DNA from: Caldimicrobium sp.
GTDB lineage: Bacteria > Desulfobacterota > Thermodesulfobacteria > Thermodesulfobacteriales > Thermodesulfobacteriaceae
Direction of reading: 5' to 3'
Assembly (NCBI GenBank): GCA_009903935.1
Contig: WYEG01000010.1
Coordinates: forward strand, 1-44,533
Length of the DNA stretch: 44,533 nt
The position numbers and the translations under genes were made by a program. The stretch's first letter is position 1. Each line of letters starts with the position of its first letter. The notes beneath the pieces were generated by a model. The model had not been told where the DNA came from. It did no database searches and saw nothing but the letters and a program-made list of their open reading frames with translations. Shown one piece after another: positions 23,052 through 44,499 of the stretch.

Positions 23052-23083
23052 TTTAATACCCCCATCCCTAACAATAAACTCTG

Positions 23084-24457: not shown

Positions 24458-24480
24458 AATCGCCCCTCATATGCATTATA

Positions 24481-26241
24481 TTATATTAAGATTATAACTG
24501 TCAAAAGAATTGCCAAAAAGATTAACAAAAATTGTAAGTACTTCAACATATTCCCATCATAAAATTTACTAGTTTTTATTGAAAGATTATAGACATTTTG
24601 AGGAACTTCAGTTGCAACTTTCCCAAGATAGACATAATTCATGCTTACCAAGAGATTACGCACACCTACTAACATTTTATCAACAAGAAATCTGTAAAAC
24701 TCCCCAACATATCTATATTCAGCTGGAACCAAAATTTTATTAAATAGATATACTAGAGCTTTACAAAGTTTAATAAAGAACCATTCTGTATCAAGATTGA
24801 TTTTTGGTTTAGGCGCAATAAGCTTTGCTACCAAAAAGTATATTAAAGCTGTAGCTGAAAAAAGGCTTAAAGAGTTTACTATATTAGTATAAGTGTAGGG
24901 GACAAAATGTTCAGGATAGGGTAATAATTGGTAGTAATATGATGGCAGAATACCTATTAAGATACACAGAGAGGAAGCAATAAACATTGCGGCATGCATA
25001 TTCCAAGGTATTGGTTTTACTTCATAGTTTGATTTGGGCTCACCAAAGAAAATGTTAAAACCCATCTTCATAACTATGCTAAAAAACGTTCCTACCGAGG
25101 CTACTTCCATCAGCAAATACTCTAAAGGTTTATGAAGGTCTGCCGCTGAATGGATGGTTATATTTTTTGAGACAAACCCGCTTGTAAGAGGTAATCCAGA
25201 AATAGACAAAGCCCCTACAAAGAAGTAAAGAGCAACCCAGGGATTTCTCCGAGCATACCCGCCTAAAAGATGCAATCTCTCAAGCCCTGTAGAATAAATA
25301 ACAGCCCCAGCTGACATAAAAAGCAACCCTTTATAAATAATGTGGGCAAAGGCATGCGCTGAAGCTCCGTTTAAAGATTCCTGGCTTCCCAATCCCGCTC
25401 CACAAACCATAAATCCAACCTGACTGACTATGTGATAGGACAAAAGCCGCCTTGGATTGTTCTCTAAGGTCGCATAGATAACTCCATATAGAGCCATCAA
25501 AGCCCCAGCTACTGAAATTATTGGCTCACCTGGGAACATCCGAACTAAAGCATAAACTGCACTTTTCGTTGTAAAGGCACTCAAGAAAACAGAACCATAA
25601 ATGGAAGCATTCGGATAGGAATCGGGCAACCAAAAATGCAAAGGAGGCATGGCTGCATTTATTAATACCGCAAGCAATATTAAGTAGTAAGGAAAAGTTC
25701 CCCTTATATTAGAAAAAGTAGCCACACTTTTAATATCATAATGAGTAGAAAGATACAGCATTCCAAGCAATAAACAAAGACCAGAAACAGCATGAATTAT
25801 GGCATACCTAACAGTTGAAAAGTATGATGCCTTAGTCCGAGAAGAGATTATCAATAAAATTGCAGTAAACGCTAACATTTCCCAAAAGGCATAGAAACTA
25901 ATCAAATCATATGCTAAAGTAACTCCAATAGCGCTTGACATGTAGAGCAATGCAGGACCTGGTATTAATCTGTTTCCCTCGTGCAAAGAATATAATAATC
26001 CTACCATTCCTATTAAGGAAAATACATAACAGAAAAATAAAGAAAGTTTATCAACCTTTATATAAAAATCATAATTAAAAATCGTTAAATAGCTATATAC
26101 GCCTTCTTGTAGATTTAAACAGAACAAAAATATAAGTACTGAAACAAAGAAAGCTAAATAATTTAGAATTCTATGGTAGAAAATAAATACAAATAAACCC
26201 AACAAAATTCCAATTAAACTAGGATGTATAATAACGCTCAT
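24481..26241 (-). CDS. NuoL/MrpD-like antiporter subunit (probable NuoL replacement)
   Basis: 586-residue membrane protein of the proton-conducting transporter family. Glu121 (YAFWEMLAFTAILL) is present in TM5 and Lys226 (SAFTTKSAVYALVRMF) in TM8, but the TM7 Lys of NuoL is Asn195 (INAAMPPLHFWLPDSYP). The pattern INAA-x-PPLH-x-WLPD-x-YP and FLSAFTTK is what I recall for a family of Mrp/NuoL-like subunits in anaerobic bacteria, usually next to a partner of about 490 residues and a small membrane protein, exactly as here. After the last core helix, a long amphipathic region (~470-565) leads to a terminal membrane helix, comparable to the lateral helix of NuoL. This suggests it occupies the NuoL position at the end of the arm. 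It overlaps the small gene upstream by 23 bases. Confidence 0.8.
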   Translation of the reverse strand: MSVIIHPSLIGILLGLFVFIFYHRILNYLAFFVSVLIFLFCLNLQEGVYSYLTIFNYDFYIKVDKLSLFFCYVFSLIGMVGLLYSLHEGNRLIPGPALLYMSSAIGVTLAYDLISFYAFWEMLAFTAILLIISSRTKASYFSTVRYAIIHAVSGLCLLLGMLYLSTHYDIKSVATFSNIRGTFPYYLILLAVLINAAMPPLHFWLPDSYPNASIYGSVFLSAFTTKSAVYALVRMFPGEPIISVAGALMALYGVIYATLENNPRRLLSYHIVSQVGFMVCGAGLGSQESLNGASAHAFAHIIYKGLLFMSAGAVIYSTGLERLHLLGGYARRNPWVALYFFVGALSISGLPLTSGFVSKNITIHSAADLHKPLEYLLMEVASVGTFFSIVMKMGFNIFFGEPKSNYEVKPIPWNMHAAMFIASSLCILIGILPSYYYQLLPYPEHFVPYTYTNIVNSLSLFSATALIYFLVAKLIAPKPKINLDTEWFFIKLCKALVYLFNKILVPAEYRYVGEFYRFLVDKMLVGVRNLLVSMNYVYLGKVATEVPQNVYNLSIKTSKFYDGNMLKYLQFLLIFLAILLTVIILI

Positions 26242-26464
26242 AACTATCTTCCCCTCGAGAAACTATTTTCCCTAATATCTTAACAACCACAGTTATAAAC
26301 AAAGCACCTATAATTCCTATTAAACCGGTAAAGAAGGGAAGGTTTTCAAAAGAAAAGGCATGATGATGTTCATGGACTAAATAATCATACAAGCTCAAGA
26401 TAAACATCAAGACAAGAATGAACGAAGATATAAAGATTTGTCGTTTAAACTGTTTATTTAACAT
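26219..26464 (-). CDS. Small two-helix membrane protein of the antiporter module
   Basis: 81 residues with two predicted membrane helices (about 10-29 and 43-64), a His-rich loop between them (YLVHEHHHAFSF) and a charged C-terminus (GEDSYERYYTS). It overlaps both flanking antiporter-like genes (11 and 23 bases), so it is almost certainly translated and coupled to them. I recall similarly placed small proteins between pairs of MrpD/NuoL-like subunits in anaerobe genomes, with a comparable pattern of PF-x-x-LIG-x-IG in the second helix followed by a Glu/Tyr-rich tail. No biochemical function is known to me. A role in holding the two antiporter subunits together is a guess from position. Confidence 0.7.
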   Translation of the reverse strand: MLNKQFKRQIFISSFILVLMFILSLYDYLVHEHHHAFSFENLPFFTGLIGIIGALFITVVVKILGKIVSRGEDSYERYYTS

Positions 26465-27932
26465 ACAAGACCTCTATTAAATTTAGCATAGGTTTTAAAT
26501 AGTCAATGAAGAAAAGGGCGATTAATATAGTAAAGATAGAAGTTATCAACAATGGAATAGCGCAGAAGTAATCCTCTCTAAATTCCTCTTTGATTTCGAC
26601 TCGTTTTAAAGCTCTTATAGGTATGGGTAGTAAGTAAGCCACGTTTAATAATGAGCTTGTTAGAAACACTAAGGCTCCAAGTATAAAATTATTTTGAAGA
26701 CAACCGCTGATAATATTAAATTTACTCCAAAAACCTATAAAACCAGGAACACCGATCATACTAAGAGTAGCTAAAAAGAAGGCAAAAAAAGTTATGGGTA
26801 ATTTCTTAGCTAGTCCGTCTAACTGAGAAATTTCAGTATAATGAGTGGAAACATAGACAGAACCAGCACCAAAAAACAAGGTAATTTTTGAAAAAGCATG
26901 CGCTGTAATATGAAGAATCCCACCTAACACAGATAAAGGATGCATCAAAGCAACTCCAAAAACGATGTAGGATAGTTGACTAACTGTGGAGAAGGCTAGT
27001 CTTGCCTTAAAATTATCTCTCGTTAAGGCAATCAATGAACCTGTTATTATTGTAAACCCGGCAAGAAATAGGATTACATCCTGAATTCCTAAAGTCAAAA
27101 TTCCTACTTTCCCATAAATGTTTAAGAGAACTCTGGCTATGGAGAAGGCACCCGTCTTTACAACGGCAACAGCATGCAAAAGAGCTGACACAGGAGTTGG
27201 AGCAACCATTGCTGATGGCAACCAGCTATGAAGAGGCATGATAGCACACTTAGTGTAACCGTAAAGATACATGATAAGGGCAATTTTTAATACTGAAGAA
27301 TAAGAATTTAATTGATCAAGATTAAATATTCCCTTAGGTAGATAGTCCAAAGTTCCAGCAACATAGTAAGTTATGGCCATGGCCGGTATCAAGAAGAGCT
27401 TTGCCGCACCAAGAAGATAAATCATATACTTTCGACCACCTTCAAGAGATTCCTCATCTTCCTTATGAGCAACTAAAGGATAGGTAGCTATGCTCATTAA
27501 CTCGTAGAAAATAAAAAGAGTTAGAAGATTACCCGAAAAGGCTACACCCATCGTCGCTGACAACGATAGAGCAAAGCAGACATAATACCTCGTTTGCCTT
27601 TTGGCATGGGTCCCCCTCATATAACCGATAGAATAAAAGGTGGTCAATATCCAAAGGAAGGAAGCTCCAAGAGCAAAGAGAAACCCCATAGGATCAACTA
27701 AGAGCTTAATAGAAAGCCCACTTGCTATGGGTAGTATCTCAATATTATAATAACCCTTTTCTAACACTACTGGATACAAAGATAGGACAAAGAGAAACTT
27801 TATAATTCCGGCTATTACCGAGACAGCCTCTCTTAAATTCGGTTTTTTATCACCAAATAGAATAATAAAAGGACAGGCTAAAAGGGAAATCAAAATAGCA
27901 CCAATAGGAGAAATATACTCTATATTAGTCAT
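26454..27932 (-). CDS. Extra MrpD/NuoM-like antiporter subunit
   Basis: 492 residues from the ATG at 27932, which overlaps the nuoK stop by eight bases (ATGACTAA). A longer frame to 27956 lies wholly inside nuoK and is not used. It is an antiporter-family membrane protein with the full set of key residues: Glu144 in FIFYELMSIATYPLVAHK (TM5), Lys228 in LYGYTKCAIMPLHSWLPSAMVAPTPVSALLHA (TM7) and Lys259 in VAVVKTGAFSIAR (TM8). SQLSYIVFG and HITAHAFSKITLFFGAGS follow. The TPVSALLHA-x-x-VVKTG pattern is that of MrpD/HyfB-type subunits rather than NuoL. With the NuoL-like, NuoM and NuoN genes downstream it makes four antiporter-type subunits in a single complex I operon, against three in the standard enzyme. 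Confidence 0.85.
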   Translation of the reverse strand: MTNIEYISPIGAILISLLACPFIILFGDKKPNLREAVSVIAGIIKFLFVLSLYPVVLEKGYYNIEILPIASGLSIKLLVDPMGFLFALGASFLWILTTFYSIGYMRGTHAKRQTRYYVCFALSLSATMGVAFSGNLLTLFIFYELMSIATYPLVAHKEDEESLEGGRKYMIYLLGAAKLFLIPAMAITYYVAGTLDYLPKGIFNLDQLNSYSSVLKIALIMYLYGYTKCAIMPLHSWLPSAMVAPTPVSALLHAVAVVKTGAFSIARVLLNIYGKVGILTLGIQDVILFLAGFTIITGSLIALTRDNFKARLAFSTVSQLSYIVFGVALMHPLSVLGGILHITAHAFSKITLFFGAGSVYVSTHYTEISQLDGLAKKLPITFFAFFLATLSMIGVPGFIGFWSKFNIISGCLQNNFILGALVFLTSSLLNVAYLLPIPIRALKRVEIKEEFREDYFCAIPLLITSIFTILIALFFIDYLKPMLNLIEVLYVK

Positions 27933-28278
27933 TCCCATCTCGGTCCCCATCCTCAATCCTCTCCCGTAGCTCTGTCATCCCTTCAATGTTAAGTGAACGC
28001 TTCAGTCTATAGTAATTTAAAACTAAAATTAAACCAATAGCAAATGAAGCTGCAGCAACGGATAAGGATAATAAAACTATCATTTGCCCAGTTAAATCAC
28101 CATAATAAAAACTTACAGTTGCAAACATCAGATTTATACCGTTAAACACAATTTCTAAGGCTAAGATAGCTAAAAGCAAGTTCTTTTTAGTAAAAAGTAA
28201 ATAAAAACCAGACAATATTATTATAGAAGCTATCAAATAAAAAACCTTCTCTCCCGCAAAGAAGGAATAATTAATCAT
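27925..28278 (-). CDS. nuoK: NADH-quinone oxidoreductase subunit K
   Basis: 117 residues from ATG 28278; a GTG nine bases upstream (28287) is also in frame. AGGGAG nine bases before the ATG and the eight-base ATGATTAA overlap with nuoJ favour the ATG. Three membrane helices are present. Helix two keeps the essential Glu42 (LALEIVFNGINLMF, equivalent to E. coli Glu36). In helix three the pattern GQ-x-x-V-x5-VAAA-E of the family reads GQMIVLLSLSVAAAS, so the second conserved Glu (E. coli Glu72) is Ser78. The C-terminus is extended by ~20 charged residues (TELRERIEDGDRDGND), which overlap the next gene. NuoK links the quinone module to the antiporter subunits. Confidence 0.9.
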   Translation of the reverse strand: MINYSFFAGEKVFYLIASIIILSGFYLLFTKKNLLLAILALEIVFNGINLMFATVSFYYGDLTGQMIVLLSLSVAAASFAIGLILVLNYYRLKRSLNIEGMTELRERIEDGDRDGND

Positions 28279-28771
28279 CGCTTTCACTCCCTTTCATAAG
28301 AAGGTAAATAGCTATCATAGGATAAGTTAGAATAAAGGCCAAAAGGAAAATCGCCAAAGGATATTGATTATAGATTAACTTTGCTAATTCCTTAACGCTA
28401 TAGACAGATGCTGAAGCCTCATACTCCCTGACATCAAAGGTAAATAAAATGAGGATCAATGTTATAACAAAAAGGAGGCTCGGTATTAAAGTTTTAATTA
28501 AGGTGGAATTTCTCATATCTTGAATTTTAAATTCCTCTTCGGGATACAGATAAAGGAAAAATAAAAACATTACCAAAATGGCACCAGCATAAACTATTAT
28601 TTGAAAAGCCATCAAGAATTCAGAGCCTAAAAAGAGATAAACAATACCTAAAAGCACCATCATGACTAAGTAAACTAAAAACTGGTAAACAACCTTTTTC
28701 TGACGAAACAACAGAAGAAATAGAGCTAAAAACAACAACAAAAATATTGACATAAACAGGGGTCTTGCCAT
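28271..28771 (-). CDS. nuoJ: NADH-quinone oxidoreductase subunit J
   Basis: 166 residues with five predicted membrane helices. The conserved helix-three region reads SEFLMAFQIIVYAGAILVMFLFFLYLYP, containing the QIIVYAGAI-x-VLF motif of NuoJ with its pi-bulge Tyr/Gly pair. It is a membrane-arm subunit lying between NuoH and NuoK and takes part in coupling. It starts one base after nuoH ends, and the nuoK ATG overlaps its stop codon. Length is close to the short NuoJ version of bacteria and no anomaly was seen. Confidence 0.93.
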   Translation of the reverse strand: MARPLFMSIFLLLFLALFLLLFRQKKVVYQFLVYLVMMVLLGIVYLFLGSEFLMAFQIIVYAGAILVMFLFFLYLYPEEEFKIQDMRNSTLIKTLIPSLLFVITLILILFTFDVREYEASASVYSVKELAKLIYNQYPLAIFLLAFILTYPMIAIYLLMKGSESDD

Positions 28772-28772
28772 G

Positions 28773-29786
28773 CTAAAAACCTCCCCTCTTAAGAAAGGCT
28801 ACAATCAAAAAGTTTAGCAAAGAAACAGGGATTAAAATCTTCCAACACATGCTCATAAGTTGGTCAAACCTATACCTTGGATAGGTAGCCCTAACCCATA
28901 TAAACAAGAAAACAAAAAAGTATACCTTTATTAACAGAATTAATGGAGCTGGGACAAACTTAAGAGGTGGAAAGATGGTTAAAAGCCAACCCGGCAATGT
29001 CCATCCTCCAAAATAGCAGTGAACAATTAAAAGAGACATAACATAGATAGAAATATATTCAGCAAGGAAAAACATGCCCATGCGAAAACCTGAGTATTCT
29101 GTAACATAACCAGCAACGAGCTCGCTTTCAGCTTCAGGTAAATCAAAGGGAGCCCTGTTTGTCTCAGCAAAGGCACATATTAGAAAAACTATAAAGCCCA
29201 ATATCTGAGGAATGGCATTCATACCAAAGAAACTTTGAGCTTGATGGTTAACTATATCGCTTAGCTTAAAAGATTCAGCCGCTAAAATAACTCCTGCCAA
29301 ACTCATACCTAAGGGTATTTCGTAGCTTAACACTTGAGCCGCTGACCTTAATCCGCCAAGAAGAGAATATTTCGAACCTGAAGACCAACCGCCAAGGATT
29401 ATTCCATACACCGCAAGGCTTGCGCCAGCTAAAATTAAGAGAATTCCTATGTTTACATCAGCAATGATAAAACTTGGATGAAAGGGTATGACGCTAAGGT
29501 TTACGATGGCAAAAGTTAAAACTATTAAGGGAGCAACAAGAAAGATTAAGCGCTCTGCCTCAAGGGGAATGATGTCCTCTTTAGTTAGGAGTTTCAAAAG
29601 GTCAGCAATGGGTTGAAGCAATCCATAGGGTCCAACCTCAGTTGGACCAAGCCTTGCTTGCATTCTACCGATAATCTTTCGCTCAGCATAGACAGTGTAA
29701 GCAGCATGAAGCAGGACTATTCCTAAAACTACAGCAATTTTAATTAAAATTAACAAAATCTCGAGAAATAGGTTATTTGATACCAT
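28773..29786 (-). CDS. nuoH: NADH-quinone oxidoreductase subunit H
   Basis: 337 residues, the usual NuoH length, with eight or nine membrane helices. Family motifs are clear: YAERKIIGRMQARLGPTEVGPYGLLQPIADLLKLLTKED, the Glu/Asp-rich quinone-chamber segment ICAFAETNRAPFDLPEAESELVAGYVTEYSG, and WVRATYPRYRFDQLM. It forms the membrane side of the quinone site together with NuoB and NuoD. The ATG overlaps the end of nuoC by 14 bases. Full conservation of the acidic quinone-channel loops argues that this complex really reacts with quinone, rather than being a membrane hydrogenase. Confidence 0.96.
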   Translation of the reverse strand: MVSNNLFLEILLILIKIAVVLGIVLLHAAYTVYAERKIIGRMQARLGPTEVGPYGLLQPIADLLKLLTKEDIIPLEAERLIFLVAPLIVLTFAIVNLSVIPFHPSFIIADVNIGILLILAGASLAVYGIILGGWSSGSKYSLLGGLRSAAQVLSYEIPLGMSLAGVILAAESFKLSDIVNHQAQSFFGMNAIPQILGFIVFLICAFAETNRAPFDLPEAESELVAGYVTEYSGFRMGMFFLAEYISIYVMSLLIVHCYFGGWTLPGWLLTIFPPLKFVPAPLILLIKVYFFVFLFIWVRATYPRYRFDQLMSMCWKILIPVSLLNFLIVAFLKRGGF

Positions 29787-30300
29787 ATTTCAATAATTCC
29801 TCATTTAATTTTTTTAGTTCTATAAAATCGAGGGGTTTTTCTTCAGGCTCTAAGGGATAATCCTTTCTGAGGGGGTGCCCAACCCAATTTTCAGGAAGTA
29901 GAATTCTCTTTAGGTTTGGATGCCCCTTAAACCTTATTCCCAAAAGGTCGTAGACCTCTCTCTCTAAGAAGTTAGCACAAGGGAAAAGGTCAACGATGCT
30001 ATCAACCTCAGGGTCATCCTCTGGAACCTCAACCCTTAGCCTTAATTGAAGCCTCTTCTCAATGCTGTAGAGCTGATATACCACCTCAAACCTTGCCTTT
30101 CTATTCTTTATCCTCAGATAATCCACACCCGTTAATGTTTGCAGATGATTAAACCCAAGGTCTTTTAAAAGTTTTATAGCCTCTTTCACTCCATCTTTTC
30201 TTAAAATTACAAACCTCTGCCCTCTGAACTCTCCCTCCTCCAAGAAATTGTCCCCTAAAACTTCTTTCAACCTTTGGACTACCTCATCAAGGGTAAGCAC
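29773..30300 (-). CDS. nuoC: NADH-quinone oxidoreductase subunit C
   Basis: 175 residues. The 30-kDa subunit signature is visible in ANFLEREVYDLLGIRFKGHPNLKRILLPENWVGHPLRKDYPL. It is a peripheral structural subunit next to NuoD and carries no cofactor. It starts with GTG (30300) behind a strong GGAGGT ribosome site at six bases, and four bases separate it from nuoA. It is a separate gene rather than a nuoCD fusion. In this operon nuoC follows nuoA, instead of sitting between nuoB and nuoD. Confidence 0.95.
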   Translation of the reverse strand: MLTLDEVVQRLKEVLGDNFLEEGEFRGQRFVILRKDGVKEAIKLLKDLGFNHLQTLTGVDYLRIKNRKARFEVVYQLYSIEKRLQLRLRVEVPEDDPEVDSIVDLFPCANFLEREVYDLLGIRFKGHPNLKRILLPENWVGHPLRKDYPLEPEEKPLDFIELKKLNEELLKYGIK

Positions 30301-30304
30301 CTTG

Positions 30305-30688
30305 CTACCTCCGATGCCAGTCGAGAATTCCTTTTTTTAAGTCGTAAACAAGACCGAGCAAAAGCACTAAAAGAAAGCCTATCATAACTAAGAACCCAGT
30401 GGAGGTTAATCCGGAAAAGCCTACCGTCCAAGGATAGATGAGCCCAAGCTCAACATCAAAAACCGCAAAAAGGATAGCAATCGGATAATACCTTATGGCT
30501 ATTTTTTGCCAAGGAAGACCGCTTGGCTCGTTTCCGCATTCGTAGGGGACGAGCTTCTCCTTATAGTAAAACCTTGGTCTCACAAAAGAGCCAAAAATTA
30601 AACCGCCAAGGCCAAAAATAAAACCTACGATAACCATTATCAGCACGGATAGGTAATTAGTGGGGACATATTCATCGGGTCTAACCAT
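30305..30688 (-). CDS. nuoA: NADH-quinone oxidoreductase subunit A
   Basis: 127 residues and three membrane helices. The conserved loop YECGNEPSGLPWQKIAIRYYPIAILFAVFDVELGLIYPW includes the Cys of the quinone-gating loop (ECG) and the FDVE acidic pair. The ATG at 30688 overlaps the nuoI stop by eight bases (ATGGTTAG). A TTG one codon earlier (30691) is the alternative. NuoA sits beside NuoH and NuoJ near the quinone entrance. It is placed after nuoI here, whereas it is usually the first gene of nuo operons. Confidence 0.94.
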   Translation of the reverse strand: MVRPDEYVPTNYLSVLIMVIVGFIFGLGGLIFGSFVRPRFYYKEKLVPYECGNEPSGLPWQKIAIRYYPIAILFAVFDVELGLIYPWTVGFSGLTSTGFLVMIGFLLVLLLGLVYDLKKGILDWHRR

Positions 30689-31250
30689 CAACCTTTACCC
30701 CTTTTATTTTTACGACAAGTCCCATCCTTCTTGGGGCAGGCTTAAGCTTTAGCGGCACTCCCTTCAAAACCCAATACTTATTCTCGTAAAATTCTTTATC
30801 CCATTTAGCTACATGCTCCTTCCAGTTTTGAACAAGCTTTTCAAGATTAAAAATAAGGTCCTCACGGCACCGACCAGAGTACTCAAACCATTCAGTTAGG
30901 ACGATAGCACCAACCGGACAAACCTCCTCACAATAACCACAATACACGCACCTCAAAGCCTCAAGAATGTATTCCCTTAATCTCCTTTCTCCGGTCTTTT
31001 CATCAACTTCATATTCAATCTTTATACACCTTGAAGGGCAGACAACTGAACATTTTAAACAAGCAACGCAACGGGGCTTACCAGTCTCAGGGTCTACGAC
31101 CATGGCATGCCTTCCCCTAAAGGAAGGAAACACTTGAACCTTTTCGTGAGGATACCGAACTGTAACGGGCTTTCTAAAAAAAGTCCTAAGCGTTATTAAA
31201 AGCCCGGTGACCAAGTCTTTAAAAAGTAAATAGGTTGGAGAAAGCCTCAT
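30681..31250 (-). CDS. nuoI: NADH-quinone oxidoreductase subunit I (2[4Fe-4S])
   Basis: 189 residues. An N-terminal amphipathic helix (LLFKDLVTGLLITLRTFF) anchors it to the membrane arm. Two [4Fe-4S] motifs follow: CVACLKCSVVCP and CVYCGYCEEVCP, which bind clusters N6a and N6b in complex I. Electrons pass through it to NuoB. In complexes lacking NuoEFG this subunit is the entry point for an outside electron donor, so it is the likely docking face for the Fe-S protein encoded at 32934-33452. It overlaps nuoD by four bases (ATGA). A C-terminal extension of ~60 residues beyond the second cluster (WKEHVAKWDKEFYENKYW) may take part in such contacts. Confidence 0.95.
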   Translation of the reverse strand: MRLSPTYLLFKDLVTGLLITLRTFFRKPVTVRYPHEKVQVFPSFRGRHAMVVDPETGKPRCVACLKCSVVCPSRCIKIEYEVDEKTGERRLREYILEALRCVYCGYCEEVCPVGAIVLTEWFEYSGRCREDLIFNLEKLVQNWKEHVAKWDKEFYENKYWVLKGVPLKLKPAPRRMGLVVKIKGVKVDG

Positions 31251-32458
31251 CTATCGCATTCCCCCATCACAATGTCAAGAGTGCCTATGATGGCAACAAG
31301 GTCGGCAATAAGATGGTCTTTTGCAAGCTTAGGTATGGCTGAAATATGAATGAAGGAAGGGGCTCTAATGTGTAAACGGTAGGGTCTTCCGCTTCCGTCG
31401 CTTACCAGATAAAACCCAAGCTCTCCTTTAGCTCCTTCAACAGCAGAATAAAGCTCACCCTTAGGGAAGATCTCTTTTGCCTCCTGTAAAAAGCTAATAA
31501 AAGCAACCTCATTAAAAGCCTCTGCTTTGAGCATCCTTCCACCAGGCATCATATCAAGGTCTGGGGTTAATTCAGAAACTACCTCTCCTTCAGGAAGCTT
31601 TTCAATGCACTGCCTAATAATCCGAATAGATTGCCTCATCTCCTGAAGACGACATTTATACCGGTCGTAGGTATCTCCATTTTTCCCTACAGGCACCTCA
31701 AACTCTACCTCAGGATAGGCATCATAGGGAAAATGCTTCCTAACATCGTAAGGCACCCCAGAGCCCCGTAGTGAAGGACCGGTCAAACCATAGGCAATCG
31801 CTTCCTCAGCGGTGATCACACCTACTCCCACAGTCCTCTCTAACCAGATCCTGTTTTCCGAAAGCAAGCCCTCGTATTCATCGATCCTTCTTTCCATCTC
31901 AGGTAAAAAGTTGTAGACCTTCTCCAAGGTTGCCTCCTCAACATCCATCCTCACCCCACCGATCCTTGGATAGCTTACAGTTAGCCTTGCTCCGCAGATT
32001 TCTTCAAAAAAGTTTAGAATTTGCTCCCTCTCCCGAAAGCAGTAGAGAAAAACCGTCATGGCTCCGATATCAAGGGCATGAGTTGCAAGCCAAAGTAAGT
32101 GGCTCGCAATCCTTGCAAGCTCACAGACCATCGTCCGTAAATATTTTCCCCGTGGGGGAGGCTCGATCCCAAGAAGCCTCTCCACAACCAAACAGTAGCC
32201 AGTATTGTTGTTCATCGCGCTTATATAATCTAGTCTGTCTGTTAAAGGTAAAACCTGGGGATAGGTAAAGTTTTCGGCAAGCTTTTCTAAACCACGATGT
32301 AAGAACCCCACAATCGGCTCGCAATCAACGATCCTTTCCCCTTCAAGCTTTAAATGAAGCTTCAGCACCCCATGGGTTGAGGGGTGCTGAGGTCCCATTT
32401 GAAGCTCTAAGACTGAAAGAAACGGGTCTTCAGGTTCAGATAAGCGATTTTCTGGCAT
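31247..32458 (-). CDS. nuoD: NADH-quinone oxidoreductase subunit D
   Basis: 403 residues, typical for NuoD. The quinone-headgroup His and Tyr are present: His29 in [11 protein letters not shown] and Tyr78 in [15 protein letters not shown] (T. thermophilus His38 and Tyr87). The [NiFe]-hydrogenase CxxC ligand pairs are absent and the C-terminus ends DIVMGECDR as in Nuo proteins. It is therefore a true quinone-reactive complex I subunit and not an Ech/Mbh-type hydrogenase large subunit. It overlaps nuoB by 23 bases and nuoI by four. Confidence 0.96.
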
Positions 32459-32909
32459 AGGGTCCCCAGTTCCTCCTTTCTTCCTTGATCACCTTTTGAA
32501 GTTTAAGCAAACCTTCAATAAGCGCCTCCGGTCTTGGGGGGCAACCAGGCACATAGATATCTACTGGCACGATTTGGTCAACGCCTTGCACCGTTGAATA
32601 GGTCCTAAAAACCCCACCAGAGCAGGCACAGCTTCCCATAGCAACAACCCACCGCGGATGGCTCATCTGATCATACACGCGACGCAAAATAGGAGCCATC
32701 TTATAAGTTAAAGTTCCAGCCACTATAAGGACATCGGCCTGCCTTGGCGAAGCACGAAAGATAATCCCAAAACGGTCAAGGTCGTTCCGGGCTGCACCTG
32801 CAGCCATCATTTCAATAGCACAGCAGGCAAGCCCAAAAGTAACAGGCCAAAGCGACCCTGCCCGAGCCCAGTTTATAATCTCATCGATTTTTCCCCAGAT
32901 AAGCTCCAT
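32436..32909 (-). CDS. nuoB: NADH-quinone oxidoreductase subunit B (cluster N2)
   Basis: 157 residues from ATG 32909, preceded by GGAGGGG at a close spacing; a TTG one codon earlier is in frame. The four ligands of the terminal cluster N2 are the tandem Cys29-Cys30 ([10 protein letters not shown]), Cys94 (GSCACSGG) and Cys123 (PGCPPRPE). This cluster passes electrons to quinone. It is the first nuo gene of the operon and follows the ferredoxin-like gene by 24 bases, with the same orientation and no visible promoter or terminator between them. nuoE, nuoF and nuoG are not found before or after it. Confidence 0.96.
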
Positions 32910-32933
32910 CAACCCCTCCGATAGAGTAAAAAG

Positions 32934-33452
32934 CTACCAAATGGTAGATTTAAGCTCTGAAGCTATACGGGTTGCGTATTTTTCCCTTACCTTCCTTGTT
33001 GCCTCCTCCGGCACGGTAAAGGTTAAGCAGCTCGTAGTGCACCCCTCAACGCAGGCAGGCTTCTCCCCACGGTCGATCCTATGCATGCAAAGATGGCATT
33101 TAAAAACCTTGCCCGTTCCCTCATCCCACTGAGGGATACCCCAAGGGCAAGCCTTCATGCAGGATTTGCAACCAATGCAGAGTTCCTGCCTTACATACAC
33201 GATCCCGTCCTTTTCTCTTCGTGTCATAGCACCGGTTGGGCAAGCCTTAATACAGAAGGCATCCTCACAGTGGAAACAGTTCATGTAAACAAAAAAGATC
33301 CGAGGGACCCCGTTTACCTCCTTAGGACCAACGGGTAAAATATCGCAGAATCTTGCTCCGGGCGAAATATTATTCTCTACTTTGCAATGGACAACGCAGG
33401 CAAGACAACCGATACATTTAAGTTGGTCTTGAGTGATGACATATTTGCTCAT
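32934..33452 (-). CDS. Four-cluster ferredoxin-like electron transfer subunit (PhsB/DmsB/HycB type)
   Basis: 172 residues with sixteen cysteines in four [4Fe-4S] sets: C13-C16-C19-C23, C59-C62-C67-C71, C92-C95-C98-C102 and C119-C122-C134-C138. This is the standard pattern of the beta subunit of DMSO-reductase-family enzymes. No signal peptide or membrane anchor is present, so it stays in the cytoplasm with its catalytic partner, encoded 13 bases upstream. A good ribosome site (AAGGAGG) precedes the ATG. In formate hydrogenlyase the equivalent protein, HycB, wires the molybdoenzyme FdhF to the complex I-like arm. Position between the molybdoenzyme gene and nuoB suggests the same job here, which is an inference. 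Confidence 0.92.
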
Positions 33453-33465
33453 CCTCTATCCTCCT

Positions 33466-35547
33466 TTAAGCTTTTTTGAGGCTCACAAAGGTTTCAAAAA
33501 GCGGGCAGTTCCCACCCACAGTAACCTTTAGTTTGCCTTTCATTAAACGTGTGTCCAAAGCTCCCTTACCAAATGACCTTGTCCTCAAAGGAACGATATC
33601 GCCAAAGCCATGGAGCATAAAGGCTATTTCTGGATGCACATAGGGCGAGACTTTTACCTTTATCCTTTCTTCAGTTCCGTTGGCAGAAACCACCACCGTA
33701 TCCCCCTCTTTAACGCCAAACTTCTTTGCTGTATCTGGATGGAGATAAAGATGATTTTCTGGACAAAGTTCATTAAGAATGGGGTTGTTGCTCGTTGTCC
33801 TTCCCTGAGTATGAAGGGCTATTTTTCCGGTGACAAGCCTAAGCATGCCTTCAGGTGGAGAGGCTGGTCTTTCATAAGGTGCAAAGGATGGAACCCCGGC
33901 CTTCTCTAAAAATTCCGAATAAACCTCTATCTTACCCGTAGGAGTATTGAACTTTAAGTTATTCCTATCATACCAGATTGGCTTGTCAGTAAGGTCGATA
34001 ACTCCTTTCTTCTGAAAATCCTCTATGGTCCAACCCGTCCCTTCAAGCTGCCAATTTACCAATTCTACCTCGTCCTTCCAGGGGAAGTGTTCTCCCTTCC
34101 CAAGCCTTTCAGCAAGGGCTTTAAAGATTTGAAATCTGCTTCTTGAGTCAAACCTTGGTTCTACAGCCTTTTGCCTTAAGGCAAGCTGAGGTCTAAGACC
34201 CTTTCTCACTATCACATGGTCAGTCCTTTCAAGATAGGTAGACTCAGGCAAGATTACATCAGCATACCAAGCGGTCAAACTCCAGTTAACATCTATGGCT
34301 ACAACAAGGTCAAGCTTATCAAAAGCTTTAACCCAGGTATCAAAGTCTGGCATAGCAACTAATGGGTCATGACGCATTGCAATGTAAGCCCTAACCGGAT
34401 AAGGATTACCTGTAAGGACCACCTCAGGAAGAACCTGCAACATTCCCCAGTTTTTCCTGATCCAAGGATATTTAGTTCCTGCCCCGTCGCATCTCTCTTC
34501 TGTCACCTTTGGAGCAATGCTCGTAGGTGTTTTAATCTTATATCCACAATCACCCGCACCCTTGGCTATAAAGATCCCGCCTTTAGCTTCATAGCTACCC
34601 ATAAGGGCGTTTAAGGTATAGATAGCCCTTCTAAAATAAAAGTCGTTCTCTGTCCAAGCAGTCATCCAACCGGGATGAAAGATCACGGATGGCTTTGCCT
34701 CAGCCGCCTCGTAAGCAATCTTTCTTATCTCTTCTGCAGGAATTCCTGTTTCCTTTTCAGCCCACTCAGGTGTATAAGGTTGAACAAAGCTTCTTAAATA
34801 CTCCATCCCAACCACATATTTGTTCACAAAATCTACATCATAAAGGTTGTTGTTCACGATGACATTTATCAAAGCCAAGGCTAAAGCATAGTCTGTGCCG
34901 GGATTAATCATAAAGAATTTATAAGCCTTTGAGGCTGTATAGTTCCATCTAACATCAATGTATACAAGCTTTCCTCCTGAATTGATCATTTCTATAACAT
35001 TTCTTGCTTCTCCAGTAATCAAACTTTCAAGTAGATTTCTTCCAAAAACCACCATATACTTACAGTTCCTATAATCGTAACCAACGGTGTTTCTTGCATG
35101 CCCTGCAATAGACATATGAGCATTATGAACAGAGTTTGAACAACTCGCATCATGGGTAAAGTAGTTAGGAGACCCAATAGCAGCTAAGAAGAGCTTATGT
35201 AATTCCGTATGCGGTCCTCCTCTGTCGCTAAGGGCTATAGCTTTTGCCCCATCTTCAGCTATGATCTTTTTAAGTTTATCGGCTATAAAATCTAAGGCTT
35301 CATCCCAGCTAACCCGTCTCCATTTCCCTGACCCTCTTTCTCCGTCACGGATCATCGGGTATTGGGGTCGCTCATTATCATACTCAAAGGCAACACCAGC
35401 TGCCCCTCTTGGACAAAGAGACTTAGCCCCAAAAACATGGGGATTCCCCCAAATATGTTTTACTATCCCGTCTTCCACCTCAACAAGGATTGGGCATCTT
35501 CCAGTGCACATACAACACAAACTATAAACTTCGCGCCTTTCTCCCAT
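33466..35547 (-). CDS. Molybdopterin oxidoreductase, PhsA/PsrA-like, without export signal
   Basis: 693 residues of the DMSO-reductase family. The N-terminal [4Fe-4S] site is C11-x2-C14-x3-C18-x26-C45. The likely Mo ligand is Cys136 in FTHDASCSNSVHNAH, which places it with the thiosulfate/polysulfide reductase branch. Formate dehydrogenases instead have a (U/C)HGP motif. GWMTAWTEN, VILPESTYLERTDH, and a C-terminal pterin-binding domain (LRLVTGKIALHTQGRTTSNNPILNEL) complete the fold. PhsA and PsrA normally carry a Tat signal and act in the periplasm. Here the first cluster cysteine is at residue 11, so there is no room for one and the enzyme is probably cytoplasmic. No PsrC/PhsC anchor gene is present; the Fe-S subunit and nuoB follow directly. 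The substrate is unproven; thiosulfate, polysulfide or a related sulfur compound is likely. Confidence 0.88.
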   Translation of the reverse strand: MGERREVYSLCCMCTGRCPILVEVEDGIVKHIWGNPHVFGAKSLCPRGAAGVAFEYDNERPQYPMIRDGERGSGKWRRVSWDEALDFIADKLKKIIAEDGAKAIALSDRGGPHTELHKLFLAAIGSPNYFTHDASCSNSVHNAHMSIAGHARNTVGYDYRNCKYMVVFGRNLLESLITGEARNVIEMINSGGKLVYIDVRWNYTASKAYKFFMINPGTDYALALALINVIVNNNLYDVDFVNKYVVGMEYLRSFVQPYTPEWAEKETGIPAEEIRKIAYEAAEAKPSVIFHPGWMTAWTENDFYFRRAIYTLNALMGSYEAKGGIFIAKGAGDCGYKIKTPTSIAPKVTEERCDGAGTKYPWIRKNWGMLQVLPEVVLTGNPYPVRAYIAMRHDPLVAMPDFDTWVKAFDKLDLVVAIDVNWSLTAWYADVILPESTYLERTDHVIVRKGLRPQLALRQKAVEPRFDSRSRFQIFKALAERLGKGEHFPWKDEVELVNWQLEGTGWTIEDFQKKGVIDLTDKPIWYDRNNLKFNTPTGKIEVYSEFLEKAGVPSFAPYERPASPPEGMLRLVTGKIALHTQGRTTSNNPILNELCPENHLYLHPDTAKKFGVKEGDTVVVSANGTEERIKVKVSPYVHPEIAFMLHGFGDIVPLRTRSFGKGALDTRLMKGKLKVTVGGNCPLFETFVSLKKA

Positions 35548-35568: not shown

Positions 35569-36381
35569 TTATTGCACAATTATTACGGCCCTGTTAGTCA
35601 AACCAGCCACCTTTTCGCTTGTGCTTCCAATAACAATCTTCTTTAATCCGGTAAGTCCTCTTTTACCCATCACGATAAAGTCAGCATCTACTTTATCTGC
35701 AGTATTACAGATCACTTCATAAGGAACACCAGAAAGGATCATTTTTTCGCTGGGAATCCCCTTTTCTATTGCTTTTTCAATGAATTGGTCAATTAAGACT
35801 TCTGCTTTTTGAGTATCTATCCCTGGATGAACAACATGTAAAAAGATCAATCTCTCCGGTTTATACCTTTCGCCTAACATTATAGCGAATTCAGTCGCTT
35901 TCTTGCTACCTTCAGAACCGTCTACAGGAACTAACACAGGACCTCCCTTGGGTGAGGCAGTTCTTGGAGCAACGCAAACATGCTTTTTAGTATGAGCTAA
36001 AACTCCTTGAGTTACGCTTCCTATTAAAAGCTTTAGAAGACCTCTTCTTCCATGCCTGCCCATTACGATTAGGTCAACATTTTGTTTTTCCGCTTGTTCA
36101 ACAATAGCAAATACAGGCTCATCTTTTAAATCAATAATATATTCATATGCAATCTCCTGCTCTATGAGTTTTTTCTTTAGCTCTTCATGATAAACTTTTA
36201 AAGCCGACATTCTTGATTCGATATGCTGAGGCAGCTGACAAAAAAGCTCTTCATTCCATTCAACAACCGAGTAGCCTATTAGCTCCGCTTGACATTTCTT
36301 AGCAAGGGCTAACGCTACACGTTCTGCACCTACCGCAAACTCAGACCCGTCAGTGCATAACATTATTTTGCAATAGGGCAT
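35569..36381 (-). CDS. Tandem universal stress protein (two UspA domains)
   Basis: 270 residues comprising two UspA domains (~1-135 and ~140-270). Each has the ATP-binding Gly-x2-Gly-x9-Gly-Ser motif: MGRHGRRGLLKLLIGSVT and MGKRGLTGLKKIVIGSTS. The conserved DGSE of strand one appears in both (TDGSEFA, VDGSEGS). It is cytoplasmic. GAGGAG lies a few bases before the ATG. It is the first gene of the long minus-strand unit and stands 21 bases before the molybdoenzyme gene, so it is probably co-transcribed with the molybdoenzyme and complex I genes. The role there is unknown. Confidence 0.9.
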   Translation of the reverse strand: MPYCKIMLCTDGSEFAVGAERVALALAKKCQAELIGYSVVEWNEELFCQLPQHIESRMSALKVYHEELKKKLIEQEIAYEYIIDLKDEPVFAIVEQAEKQNVDLIVMGRHGRRGLLKLLIGSVTQGVLAHTKKHVCVAPRTASPKGGPVLVPVDGSEGSKKATEFAIMLGERYKPERLIFLHVVHPGIDTQKAEVLIDQFIEKAIEKGIPSEKMILSGVPYEVICNTADKVDADFIVMGKRGLTGLKKIVIGSTSEKVAGLTNRAVIIVQ

Positions 36382-36461
36382 GCTCAGCTCCTCTTTTTCC
36401 CCAATATTAGCAAGTTTTATACCTAACCGTTTTAAAGATAATCAGGGCAATCTTTGTCCTC

Positions 36462-36524
36462 TTTGGAACAGTTATTGTTCCAAATGGAACAATTATTGTC
36501 CAAAAAGGAACAGTAAGGGGAACA
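36462..36524. promoter_or_regulatory. Phased GGAACA operator array in a divergent intergenic region
   Basis: A perfect inverted repeat, TTTGGAACA (36462-36470) and TGTTCCAAA (36476-36484), has a five-base spacer. A second, imperfect copy follows: TGGAACA (36485-36491), five bases, TGTCCA (36497-36502). Two further GGAACA half-sites start at 36507 and 36519. The first three GGAACA copies begin at 36465, 36486 and 36507, exactly 21 bases apart, or about two helical turns, so bound proteins would lie on one DNA face. The array sits between the divergent stress-protein/molybdoenzyme unit and the split TauE genes, about 40-100 bases upstream of a sigma-54-like promoter. That layout suits an enhancer bound by a dimeric activator. 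Confidence 0.6.
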
Positions 36525-36549
36525 AAAAGGGGCAAAGCGCCAATTAGTT

Positions 36550-36568
36550 ATGCCAATTTTTTTGGCAT
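36550..36568. repeat. Short perfect inverted repeat ATGCCAA-N5-TTGGCAT
   Basis: Seven-base arms (36550-36556 and 36562-36568) flank five thymines and are followed by a further T-rich run. It overlaps the -24 half of the proposed sigma-54 promoter. It could be an operator covering that promoter or a weak transcription stop for anything entering from the left. Short A/T-rich stems of this kind also arise by chance. Confidence 0.4.
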
Positions 36569-36578
36569 ATTTTTTGTA
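36563..36578 (+). promoter_or_regulatory. Candidate sigma-54 (-24/-12) promoter for the split TauE genes
   Basis: TTGGCAT is followed by an A/T spacer and TTGTA. The -24 GG (36564-36565) and the -12 GT (36576-36577, consensus GC) are separated by exactly ten bases as required. The -24 block matches YTGGCAC in six of seven bases and the -12 block matches TTGCA in four of five. Transcription would start near 36588, leaving a leader of about 30 bases with a GGAGG ribosome site before the ATG at 36617. The phased GGAACA array lies upstream, and a GAFTGA-type activator is encoded at 20250-21674. Confidence 0.5.
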
Positions 36579-36616
36579 TTTAATATTCTTGAATTAAAAA
36601 ACTTTGGAGGCGGGGC

Positions 36617-37903
36617 ATGATGTATTGGCAACGTCTAAAGTCTGATTTATTGTTATGGTTTTTCTTTTTAGTATTTTTGTTCGTTAGCACACCTTGCTTT
36701 TCTCAGGAAAAGCAGGCTGAGCCTCAGGCAAAGCCTGCTGAACCTCCAAAAGTAGAGGTAAAGCTTGACAAGGATAAGTATAAAGGTGGGGACACCATTC
36801 AGATTACGGGTAAAGTTCCACCGGGAATGAAGGTCAACTTCATTGAAATTACCTCTACGGAGGCTAAGGTTCAGGTTGGAAGGTTAGACAGAAAGGATTT
36901 TAAATTCTATTTAAGCACCGAAATTCCGGCTTTTTACACCATTATTATCAATGAAAATTATGTAGCCAAAATTGATAAGAACGGCACGGTAGAGGAAAAG
37001 CCAGTAAAGGAAATCTATGCCAAGTATAAGGCTGATAAAAAATGGAGGATAGGGGAATTTCTAAAGGAATCAAACGCTGATATAGCTTTCATTACCCCTC
37101 CCAAGATGATATCTGAAATAAAGGTATGGAAGTCAAGCGTTGTAAGGGCAATTGTTGGTTCAAGAGGAGAACCGCAACCAAGTATAACTGATAAAAAAGA
37201 GGTCAAAAAAGAAGCTGCAAGGCTTCTTCAAGCAAGGATGAGAAGTCTAAGCAACCTTTTCGTCCTCGGGAAGATTACAACCAATGAAGACGGAACCTTT
37301 ACCGCTACTTTTAAGCTTCCTGAAAATGCTCCCAAAGGAGCTTTTTCGGTCATTGCGGTTGTGGACAAGGATTTGAAAAGCGAACCTGCCAAGTTTATCT
37401 GTGAAGTATCCTTTCCGAAGTTCTACTTCCCTGTTGCTGGGACCTCGGTTAACCTTTTTGGACCGTTTATCCTTGCCTTAGCCATCTGCACCTTTGGTGT
37501 TTTGATGGGTGCTGGTGGAGGCTTCATTTTGAACCCGCTTTTGATCCTTATCTATCATATGCCCCATCAAGTTGTTGCAGGGTCAGTCATGCCAACAGTG
37601 CTCTTTAGCCAGGCTTCGGGTATCTATAACTACTCCAAGATCGGTTTTATCAACTGGAAGCTTGGTATAGGAGTTGGAATTTTCATGGCTCTTGGTGGGT
37701 TTATCGGACCACTTCTCAACCAATTTGTTACTTTAGACGAATATAAGTTCGTGTTCGGTATTGTGCTCCTAATCCTTGCCGCTCTTATGCTCTGGCAGAC
37801 TACACCAGGTTATATTGAAAAATCTAAGAAAGAAAAGGCTATCTTGGAAGAGTTTAAGAGAAGAGCCGCAGCTGCTAAAGCTCAAAAGGAACAAAAATCT
37901 TAA
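36617..37903 (+). CDS. TauE/SafE-type permease, first half, with large periplasmic domain
   Basis: 428 residues. A signal or anchor helix (~11-29) is followed by a ~240-residue exported domain of beta-rich character (VEVKLDKDKYKGGDTIQITGKVPPG; later DGTFTATFKLPENAPKGAFSVIAVV). Then comes one four-helix TauE half (~280-393) with MGAGGGFILNPLLIL, HQVVAGSVMPTVLF and GIGVGIFMALGGFIGP, and a charged cytoplasmic tail. TauE/SafE proteins export sulfite, sulfoacetate or related anions using two such halves. Only one is here; the other is the next gene, 12 bases on. GGAGG six bases upstream supports the start. Proximity to the PhsA-like gene suggests a sulfur oxyanion substrate, which is unproven. Confidence 0.85.
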   Translation: MMYWQRLKSDLLLWFFFLVFLFVSTPCFSQEKQAEPQAKPAEPPKVEVKLDKDKYKGGDTIQITGKVPPGMKVNFIEITSTEAKVQVGRLDRKDFKFYLSTEIPAFYTIIINENYVAKIDKNGTVEEKPVKEIYAKYKADKKWRIGEFLKESNADIAFITPPKMISEIKVWKSSVVRAIVGSRGEPQPSITDKKEVKKEAARLLQARMRSLSNLFVLGKITTNEDGTFTATFKLPENAPKGAFSVIAVVDKDLKSEPAKFICEVSFPKFYFPVAGTSVNLFGPFILALAICTFGVLMGAGGGFILNPLLILIYHMPHQVVAGSVMPTVLFSQASGIYNYSKIGFINWKLGIGVGIFMALGGFIGPLLNQFVTLDEYKFVFGIVLLILAALMLWQTTPGYIEKSKKEKAILEEFKRRAAAAKAQKEQKS

Positions 37904-37915
37904 GGGGGTTAAGCC

Positions 37916-38320
37916 ATGAAGATGACTATAGAGTTTTGGGGTGAAAAATTTGAAGCTAACATGGTGATCGGTGCCATAGGGGGTTTTTTGATCGCCGTTG
38001 CCTCAAGCCTCGGTGGGTTTGGTGGTGGTCCTTTTGTGGTCCCGTTGATGACGGTCATCATGAGACTTCCCATCTATGTGGTCGTTGGAAGCTCCCTCTT
38101 AGCCATCTTCTTTAACACCTTAATGGCATCAGCAAGGTATTACTTTTTTGGGCAGACTGATATCCCTCTCTTTATAATAATGGCTATTGGGGCGGTAGCT
38201 GCAGGCTTTATTGGTCCAAGAATAGCTAAAAAACTTAGTCCCATCTGGGTAAAAAGAGTTGCCGCCATAGGAATTCTTTATCTCGCTTTAAAGCTCTTAA
38301 ACGTGCCCTTTATACCTTAA
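37916..38320 (+). CDS. TauE/SafE-type permease, second half
   Basis: 134 residues, four membrane helices. It repeats the TauE half pattern of the preceding gene: SLGGFGGGPFVVPLM, YVVVGSSLLAIFFNTLMASARY, and IGAVAAGFIGPRIAKKL. It has its own G-rich ribosome site (AAGGGGG) and ATG and does not continue the preceding frame, so it is a separate gene rather than a frameshift fragment. On its own it is too small for a normal TauE protein of 250 or more residues. With the first-half gene it could form a complete two-half transporter, or the halves could homo-oligomerise. A strong terminator follows 63 bases after the stop. Confidence 0.82.
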   Translation: MKMTIEFWGEKFEANMVIGAIGGFLIAVASSLGGFGGGPFVVPLMTVIMRLPIYVVVGSSLLAIFFNTLMASARYYFFGQTDIPLFIIMAIGAVAAGFIGPRIAKKLSPIWVKRVAAIGILYLALKLLNVPFIP

Positions 38321-38383: not shown

Positions 38384-38406
38384 CCCCTCCCAGGGAGGGG
38401 TTTCTT
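38384..38406 (+). terminator. Rho-independent terminator after the split TauE genes
   Basis: CCCCTCC (38384-38390) pairs with GGAGGGG (38394-38400) around a three-base CAG loop. TTTCTT follows directly. The seven-pair stem is all G/C except one pair. The upstream 60 bases are unusually C-rich (runs of CCCCTCC), which may assist or may reflect local repeat growth. It separates the TauE unit from the hydrogenase-protease gene. Confidence 0.75.
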
Positions 38407-43353: not shown

Positions 43354-44499
43354 CTATCTAAACAATATAAAAGACAATAAACCTCCAAAGACTACCACAT
43401 AAAGGATGTTAATGCCTTTATAAAGCACAAGAAGGCTTGCTATAAAGAAAAGAAGTTTAATGATATTCCAATCAATCGCAAAGCTTAGCTTAAAGGAGGC
43501 AAAAAGCAAAAGGGCACAAAAGGAGGCTAAAATTCCACTTTTTCCTCTTAAAAAGATAGGATTATTTCTTATTCTATCAGCAATTTTAGTTGAAAGTAGG
43601 TATACTACAAAAGAGGGAGCAAAGACATAAATCGTAGCTAAAATAGCACCAGAAAGTCCATAAGCTAAATATCCAACAAAGGTTGCAGTAATTAGGATGG
43701 GACCTGGAGTAACTTGTCCAAGAGCAATGCCATCCATAAAGGTTTTGCTATCAAGCAATTTCATGTTTTCTACTACTTCATGGAGCATAAGCGGTAAAGC
43801 GGTGTAAGCCCCTCCAAAGGCAAATAAGTTTATTTTTACCATCATTAAACTTAGTTGAAAAAGGTTGGTATTAAAAAAATATAGCAAAATTAACCCTAAG
43901 AATAGGATAAAGAATAAAAATAGAATCCCAGTTAAACTGATCGATTGAGTATGTATGATTTCTAAAGACATTGATTTATCCTTAAACAAAGCTTGAGATA
44001 ATAGAAAGCAAAGAATAAGAACAAGAAAGGGACTTATCCCCATCAATAGAAGAACAAAGGAAGCTAAGGCTATCAAAAATTCAACTTTAGACTTGACGAT
44101 GGATTTTGTAAAGCTTAAGAAGGCATTGGCAACGATGGCAACGACTATTACTTTTAGACCGTTGAAAAGGGAGATAACCTGCGGGAGGTTTGAGGTCTTT
44201 TGGTAGAGGGCGCTAAGGAAGAGCATAAGGAGAAAGGCAGGCAAAGCAAAGGCAACATAAGTGGTGATAGCTCCAACAATCCCTCTTAGCTTTACACCTA
44301 CAAAGCCTGCAACATGCATGGCGATAGGACCTGGAACTATCTGGGACAGGGCAACCCCTTCGTTGAAGGTTCTTTGGTCAAGCCATCCCTTTCTTTGCAC
44401 AGCAAGCTCTCGTATGTAAGCAACCATTGCCGGTCCACCAAAGGCCGTTAAGCCAAGCTTTAAAAAGGAGAAAAATAGGTCAAAAAGCGCAGCCTGCAT
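43354..44499 (-). CDS. chrA: Chromate transporter family protein (two CHR domains)
   Basis: 381-residue membrane protein made of two homologous CHR halves. The first (~1-185) has FGGPAMVAYIRELAVQRKGWL and GVALSQIVPGPIAMHVAGFVG. The second (~200-381) has FGGAYTALPLMLHEVVENMKLL and GIALGQVTPGPILITATFVGY. The repeated FGG-x10-14-W/L and Q-x-x-PGP motifs define the long-chain ChrA family. Members export chromate; others have no known substrate, and in an anaerobe another oxyanion is possible. It starts at ATG 44499 with a -10-like TAAAAT seven bases upstream and no ribosome site. It is the last gene before the window edge. Confidence 0.9.
   Translation of the reverse strand: MQAALFDLFFSFLKLGLTAFGGPAMVAYIRELAVQRKGWLDQRTFNEGVALSQIVPGPIAMHVAGFVGVKLRGIVGAITTYVAFALPAFLLMLFLSALYQKTSNLPQVISLFNGLKVIVVAIVANAFLSFTKSIVKSKVEFLIALASFVLLLMGISPFLVLILCFLLSQALFKDKSMSLEIIHTQSISLTGILFLFFILFLGLILLYFFNTNLFQLSLMMVKINLFAFGGAYTALPLMLHEVVENMKLLDSKTFMDGIALGQVTPGPILITATFVGYLAYGLSGAILATIYVFAPSFVVYLLSTKIADRIRNNPIFLRGKSGILASFCALLLFASFKLSFAIDWNIIKLLFFIASLLVLYKGINILYVVVFGGLLSFILFR

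Follow-up and report, generated by a model that had tools for sequence, protein, structure and literature searches.

The window analysed here, a stretch of 44,533 nucleotides from contig WYEG01000010.1 of a Caldimicrobium sp. genome (GCA_009903935.1), carries two intact genes, A (36617-37903) and B (37916-38320), arranged head to tail on the forward strand and 12 nt apart. Gene A encodes 428 aa, comprising a signal peptide region (36617-36706, +; residues 1-30, with a hydrophobic segment at 12-24, read from the hydropathy of the translation), an exported domain (36728-37423, +), an N-terminal TauE half (37457-37798, +; residues 281-394, with helices at 281-297, 302-313, 317-342, 347-367 and 373-394) and a basic C-tail (37799-37900, +). 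The 134 aa of gene B form a C-terminal TauE half that starts with a conserved FWGxxF hairpin and bears a strongly basic loop between its last two helices. A Shine-Dalgarno-like GGAGG precedes A (36606-36610), and a second such run, GGGGG, lies between the stop of A and the start of B (37904-37908, +), in agreement with the first-pass annotation of this DNA, which had proposed a TauE/SafE permease whose halves are separately encoded, each with its own ribosome site.

Both proteins match the TauE/SafE family (PF01925; TSUP, TC 2.A.102, exemplified by TauE of Cupriavidus necator) above the Pfam gathering threshold of 32.6 bits: residues 284-402 of A align to model positions 2-114 (67.6 bits, E 1.7e-18) and residues 15-127 of B to positions 125-237 (80.6 bits, E 1.9e-22), so that one family of 237 positions is shared out over two genes. 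Read jointly, A and B reach 144.8 bits, more than any other TauE match in the genome, where five further TauE genes are each matched within one open frame. The transmembrane halves also align with each other in a profile-profile comparison (hhalign, probability 95.7%, E 1e-8) and have in common the motifs GGGF/GGGP, VAGS/VVGS and GGFIGP/AGFIGP, confirming the earlier proposal that they are homologous, which had been drawn from GGG, VxGS and GFIGP-type motifs. Ordinary TauE/SafE proteins show the same repeat halves and the same motif types, and A and B together cover the family model end to end, but they do so as two genes, the N-half being joined to an exported domain of about 230 residues. 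Searches of PDB sequences with A and B gave no convincing relative.

To place the pair among its relatives, one genome per species was scanned; 173 relatives of A were found, of which the best 80 were analysed. A separate B gene follows A in all 78 of these loci that have enough sequence (in the other two the sequence stops at or just past A), and the presence of both repeats in one chain—a usual, although not strictly defining, feature of TauE—is thus absent from the window and from 78/78 loci. B shares the frame of A in 30 of the 78 and has another in 48; where the frame is the same, the gaps span 5-51 codons and the stops vary. Both parts are strongly conserved, a ribosome-site-like run stands ahead of B in the loci inspected, and two whole-genome sets, which overlap the named loci, agree with the split arrangement. 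In the window itself A and B happen to share a frame, with two TAA codons between them, as would be expected of an ordinary single-chain TauE interrupted by a sequencing error or a recent break. Given the uniformly split loci, the change of frame in most of them, the ribosome-site-like run and the conservation of both parts, such an origin is scarcely credible; a sequencing error as such is ruled out by the 78 split loci, and the base error that might have joined the frames can be set aside. That the frame is shared, both in the window and among 30 relatives, would also suit a B produced by readthrough or frameshifting at the end of A, with a long single chain present as well, and a read-through chain is predicted to be foldable (see below). 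This too was rejected, on the varying frames and stops, and with a ribosome site of its own before B it is only marginally more plausible than an error.

Among the best 80 of the 173 relatives, the closest named ones belong to Caldimicrobium and Thermodesulfobacterium, and the hosts extend over Thermodesulfobacteriota, Nitrospirota (including metagenome-assembled genomes, MAGs, named Nitrospira), Bacillota (Ammonifex), Pseudomonadota (a Sulfuritalea MAG) and one Omnitrophota MAG; as several of these hosts are MAGs, single taxonomic placements may be binning errors. Split-type matches were found in 22 of 297 genomes spread over the phylum, indicating a patchy distribution there, and neither A nor B was found alone in the loci examined. 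The split pair is therefore a real and old variant of the TauE/SafE family, present in sulfur bacteria of several phyla. It is unusual in design relative to ordinary TauE, as had been suggested initially, but it recurs widely in sulfur-metabolising bacteria. No paper describing it was found in a literature search that did not reach most subscription papers, so an earlier mention is possible. A survey of TSUP proteins in sulfate reducers (Marietou et al. 2018, PMC5840216) reports, in the sections available, many uncharacterised TSUP genes per genome, some of them near sulfate-reduction genes, and the same sections contain no mention of split genes or of an exported domain.

A natural single-chain counterpart also exists. 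One weak match among the 297 genomes (L136, genome G104), from a different order of the phylum, turned out to be an open frame of 582 aa with a signal peptide, an Ig-like domain, an N-half and a C-half (TauE model positions 2-236), and over 20 other genomes of that order encode full-length relatives about 75-80% identical to it. These proteins (L136 and L150-L169, about 570 aa, range 548-650 aa), of which several genomes of one order hold two copies, have the same order of parts as A and B, but in one chain. When 20 of them were cut mid-chain, the A and B profiles gave 45 and 3 bits with the N-halves, against 14 and 67 bits with the C-halves, and the order was the same in 20/20 proteins. That the fused halves match A and then B, in this order, indicates that A and B belong together. 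The linker before the fused C-half bears FWGETF, which corresponds to the FWGxxF at the start of B; the motif is also present in L016, a compared TauE without this exported domain. In a tree of the transmembrane parts the split set (99/99) and the fused set (100/99) each form a clade of their own, on long branches and not shown as sisters, and the exported domains of the two sets have distant similarity (hhalign 88.6% over 56 columns). Parsimony over TauE as a whole favours a derivation of the split arrangement by fission.

The distribution of charges differs clearly between the halves. Averaged over 28 sequences of each, the net charge of the loop between TM2 and TM3 is +2.9 in A and 0.0 in B, that of the loop between TM3 and TM4 is 0.0 in A and +4.25 in B, and that of the C-terminal tail is +4.5 in A and near zero in B. 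This inversion of the positive-inside pattern implies fixed opposite topologies and, together with the exported N-terminal domain of A, a N-out/C-in orientation for A, with its tail predicted to be cytoplasmic, and N-in/C-out for B, which argues against dual-topology homodimers and fits two pairing inverted repeats. Half-size homodimers exist in other transporter families, and homologous halves that each contain a full repeat could in principle be merely tandem paralogues, each forming its own homodimeric, or dual-topology homodimeric, transporter. Such an arrangement is improbable here: A and B are not interchangeable, each matching one specific half of the single-chain relatives; with their strong and opposite charge bias neither looks like a dual-topology protein; and neither gene occurred alone in the loci examined. 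A possible analogy is provided by paired small multidrug resistance proteins of the EbrAB type, in which two homologous subunits have fixed opposite topology, although these belong to an unrelated family, and A and B would each correspond to half of an internally duplicated carrier.

A joined A-B chain, made from the window DNA with TAA read as Gly and an alignment drawn from loci with A and B in the same frame, was predicted by AlphaFold2 as two five-helix sets that match each other (pLDDT 79.9, pTM 0.73, scores that describe the joined chain and not an interface), with moderate to low confidence in the last helix and tail of A. A fold search with this model returned mostly beta-sandwich matches, none with E <0.01. 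From the charge pattern and the single-chain relatives, it is most likely that A and B form one heteromeric transporter.

The exported domain (about residues 37-270, behind the signal peptide) was predicted with confidence on its own (AlphaFold2, pLDDT 92.3, pTM 0.88); the fusion of an exported domain to the first half, as first noted, is upheld. It appears as an MG2/Ig-like beta-sandwich with a mainly helical insert of about 90 residues; in the modelled piece the strands precede about residue 91 or follow about residue 178, and the insert occupies about 92-177. The best Foldseek matches are immunoglobulin-like sandwiches, above all the alpha2-macroglobulin MG2 domain 2p9r (probability 1.00, TM-score 0.63-0.66 on the target, E 0.004-0.02). 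Pfam MG2 (PF01835) gives 21.3 bits (E 3.4e-4) with the A of the window, below its gathering threshold of 32.8 bits, and is found at E<0.01 in 12 of 43 relatives (best 1.1e-6). The first-pass annotation had pictured a heteromeric exporter with a sensing or binding domain; the heteromer is supported by the arguments above, but the label of exporter is not, and neither is the sensing role, the fold being a general sandwich of the MG2/Ig-like kind.

A second family, Alph_Pro_TM (PF09608), scores 16.2 bits with A (E 0.009; gathering threshold 24.5 bits) and reaches E<0.01 in 11 of 43 relatives (best 2.4e-4), and hhalign relates it to whole A at 92.5% (E 4.8e-7) and to the domain only at 87.8%. With a score under the threshold, membership of the exported domain in PF09608 was rejected and a distant similarity retained. 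Across 41 genomes, all nine above-threshold PF09608 genes directly adjoin a TauE gene. Such neighbours (L106-L113) place two similar modules side by side, but there the TauE is single-chain and the exported protein is separate, with a C-terminal transmembrane helix of its own. Similar modules thus exist in three arrangements: TauE with a separate exported protein, a single chain, and the split pair. In several of the TauE-PF09608 pairs (L106-L113, L117) a PPDK_N (pyruvate-phosphate-dikinase-like) gene or universal stress genes come next. The literature searched gave no function for PF09608.

Divergently from A, the window carries three recurrent neighbours of the pair on the reverse strand: a double universal-stress-protein gene (35569-36381), a PhsA/PsrA-like molybdopterin oxidoreductase (MoOR, 33466-35547) and a 4Fe-4S electron-transfer subunit (32934-33452), followed by nuo genes from 32912 down. 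In other genomes the MoOR gene often lies just downstream of the pair together with the 4Fe-4S subunit, and in several Nitrospirota nuoB, D, I, A and C follow. The MoOR scores 556.3 bits against PhsA (NF012032), below the equivalog cut-off of 694, and its nearest solved structure is thiosulfate reductase/PsrA 2vpw (E 9e-112). Its alignments start only at position 39 of the model and position 36 of the chain, so that the Tat signal is missing and the enzyme probably resides in the cytoplasm. For a sulfur-anion enzyme located there, substrate or product has to pass through the membrane, and a thiosulfate- or sulfite-type anion is proposed on this ground. Of 73 loci in which an A gene was called, 42 have MoOR near the pair, as do 23 of the 40 whose flanks both exceed 3.5 kb; since some 40% of loci show no such linkage, the link to the substrate is indirect. 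Judged by this gene company, the substrate of A and B is most likely a small sulfur anion such as thiosulfate or sulfite.

The MoOR and FeS genes stand directly upstream of nuoB in an apparently NuoEFG-less complex I operon (21630-35547, -), and the NuoF domain PF10589 was not found in the genome, which is 97% complete. The order MoOR-FeS-NuoB-NuoD recurs in Nitrospirota loci and suggests a complex I with a sulfur-linked electron module. Proteomics of Desulfolithobacter recorded the products of a PhsA-PhsB-Nuo run (GF1_30490 to GF1_30520), with the Nuo subunits appearing solely in thiosulfate disproportionation (PMC9751629).

Genes for a histidine kinase and a sigma-54 response regulator also recur beside the pair (cluster counts are partly inflated by broad homology), sigma-54 regulator genes being frequent neighbours, and 26 of 79 loci, against an expectation of about 4, have sigma-54-like boxes upstream of A that no more than 5 in 100 shuffles better. 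A and B might accordingly be a receptor, with a sulfur compound bound by the exported domain and its signal relayed by the TauE-like membrane part to the nearby sigma-54 two-component system, and a transporter-like protein with a signalling role has a precedent in SoxT1B (PMC11582611). This is unlikely, if somewhat less so than separate homodimers: many loci, the window among them, have no kinase gene near the pair, both halves keep the motifs of transporting TauE proteins, and genes for molybdopterin enzymes recur no less constantly beside it.

Taken together, A and B are quite probably the N- and C-halves of one TauE/SafE carrier that pair as two subunits, with sulfur-anion transport as the likely function. 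The analysis establishes the conserved and intact split, the identity of the halves, the existence of fused counterparts, the inverted charges, the predicted domain fold and the neighbourhood, while the assembly of the heteromer, its substrate, the direction of transport and the role of the exported domain are inferences. A single carrier would have been divided at the linker between its repeats, giving two subunits made from neighbouring genes, probably on one message. A would enter the membrane from the outside, following its exported domain, and B from the inside, and the opposed pseudo-symmetric halves would together build the transport pathway, whose outer face would carry the MG2-like domain. 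A small sulfur anion may then cross the inner membrane through this pathway, serving the cytoplasmic PhsA/PsrA-like enzyme with its FeS protein and complex I genes.

TauE/SafE proteins are ubiquitous and poorly characterised, and a natural two-subunit TauE, each half of which could be expressed, labelled and reconstituted, would offer a direct test of the inverted-repeat mechanism. The pair, with genes for a thiosulfate/polysulfide-type molybdoenzyme and complex I, is also a concrete candidate for the crossing of sulfur anions through the inner membrane, a gap in the pathways of sulfate reducers and sulfur disproportionators. More speculatively, and with considerable doubt, a widespread heteromeric TauE carrier whose MG2-like domain is active in transport might work together with a thiosulfate/polysulfide-type molybdoenzyme of the cytoplasm, the latter feeding or draining a complex I that lacks the NADH module, and the whole would form a unit of sulfur-anion uptake and respiration in sulfate reducers, disproportionators and Nitrospirota.

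Some minor features flank the pair. The divergent promoter region upstream of A holds three tandem 25-nt repeats with 21-bp spacing (36448-36514), built on the palindrome GGAACAGTTATTGTTCC, whose pattern has its sole perfect match in the genome here; they are possible activator sites. A weak sigma-54-like box, TTGGCATATTTTTTGTA (36562-36579, +), overlaps a palindrome (36549-36569), TATGCCAA-TTTTT-TTGGCATA, which with a T run extends over 36549-36579 and could instead be a terminator. After B comes a terminator-like hairpin, CCCCTCCCAGGGAGGGG, with a T-rich stretch (38384-38400, +), of a kind whose count in the region is not above chance. Further along, at 43354-44499 (-), the window encodes a chromate (ChrA-type) transporter-like protein, judged by eye from its translation.
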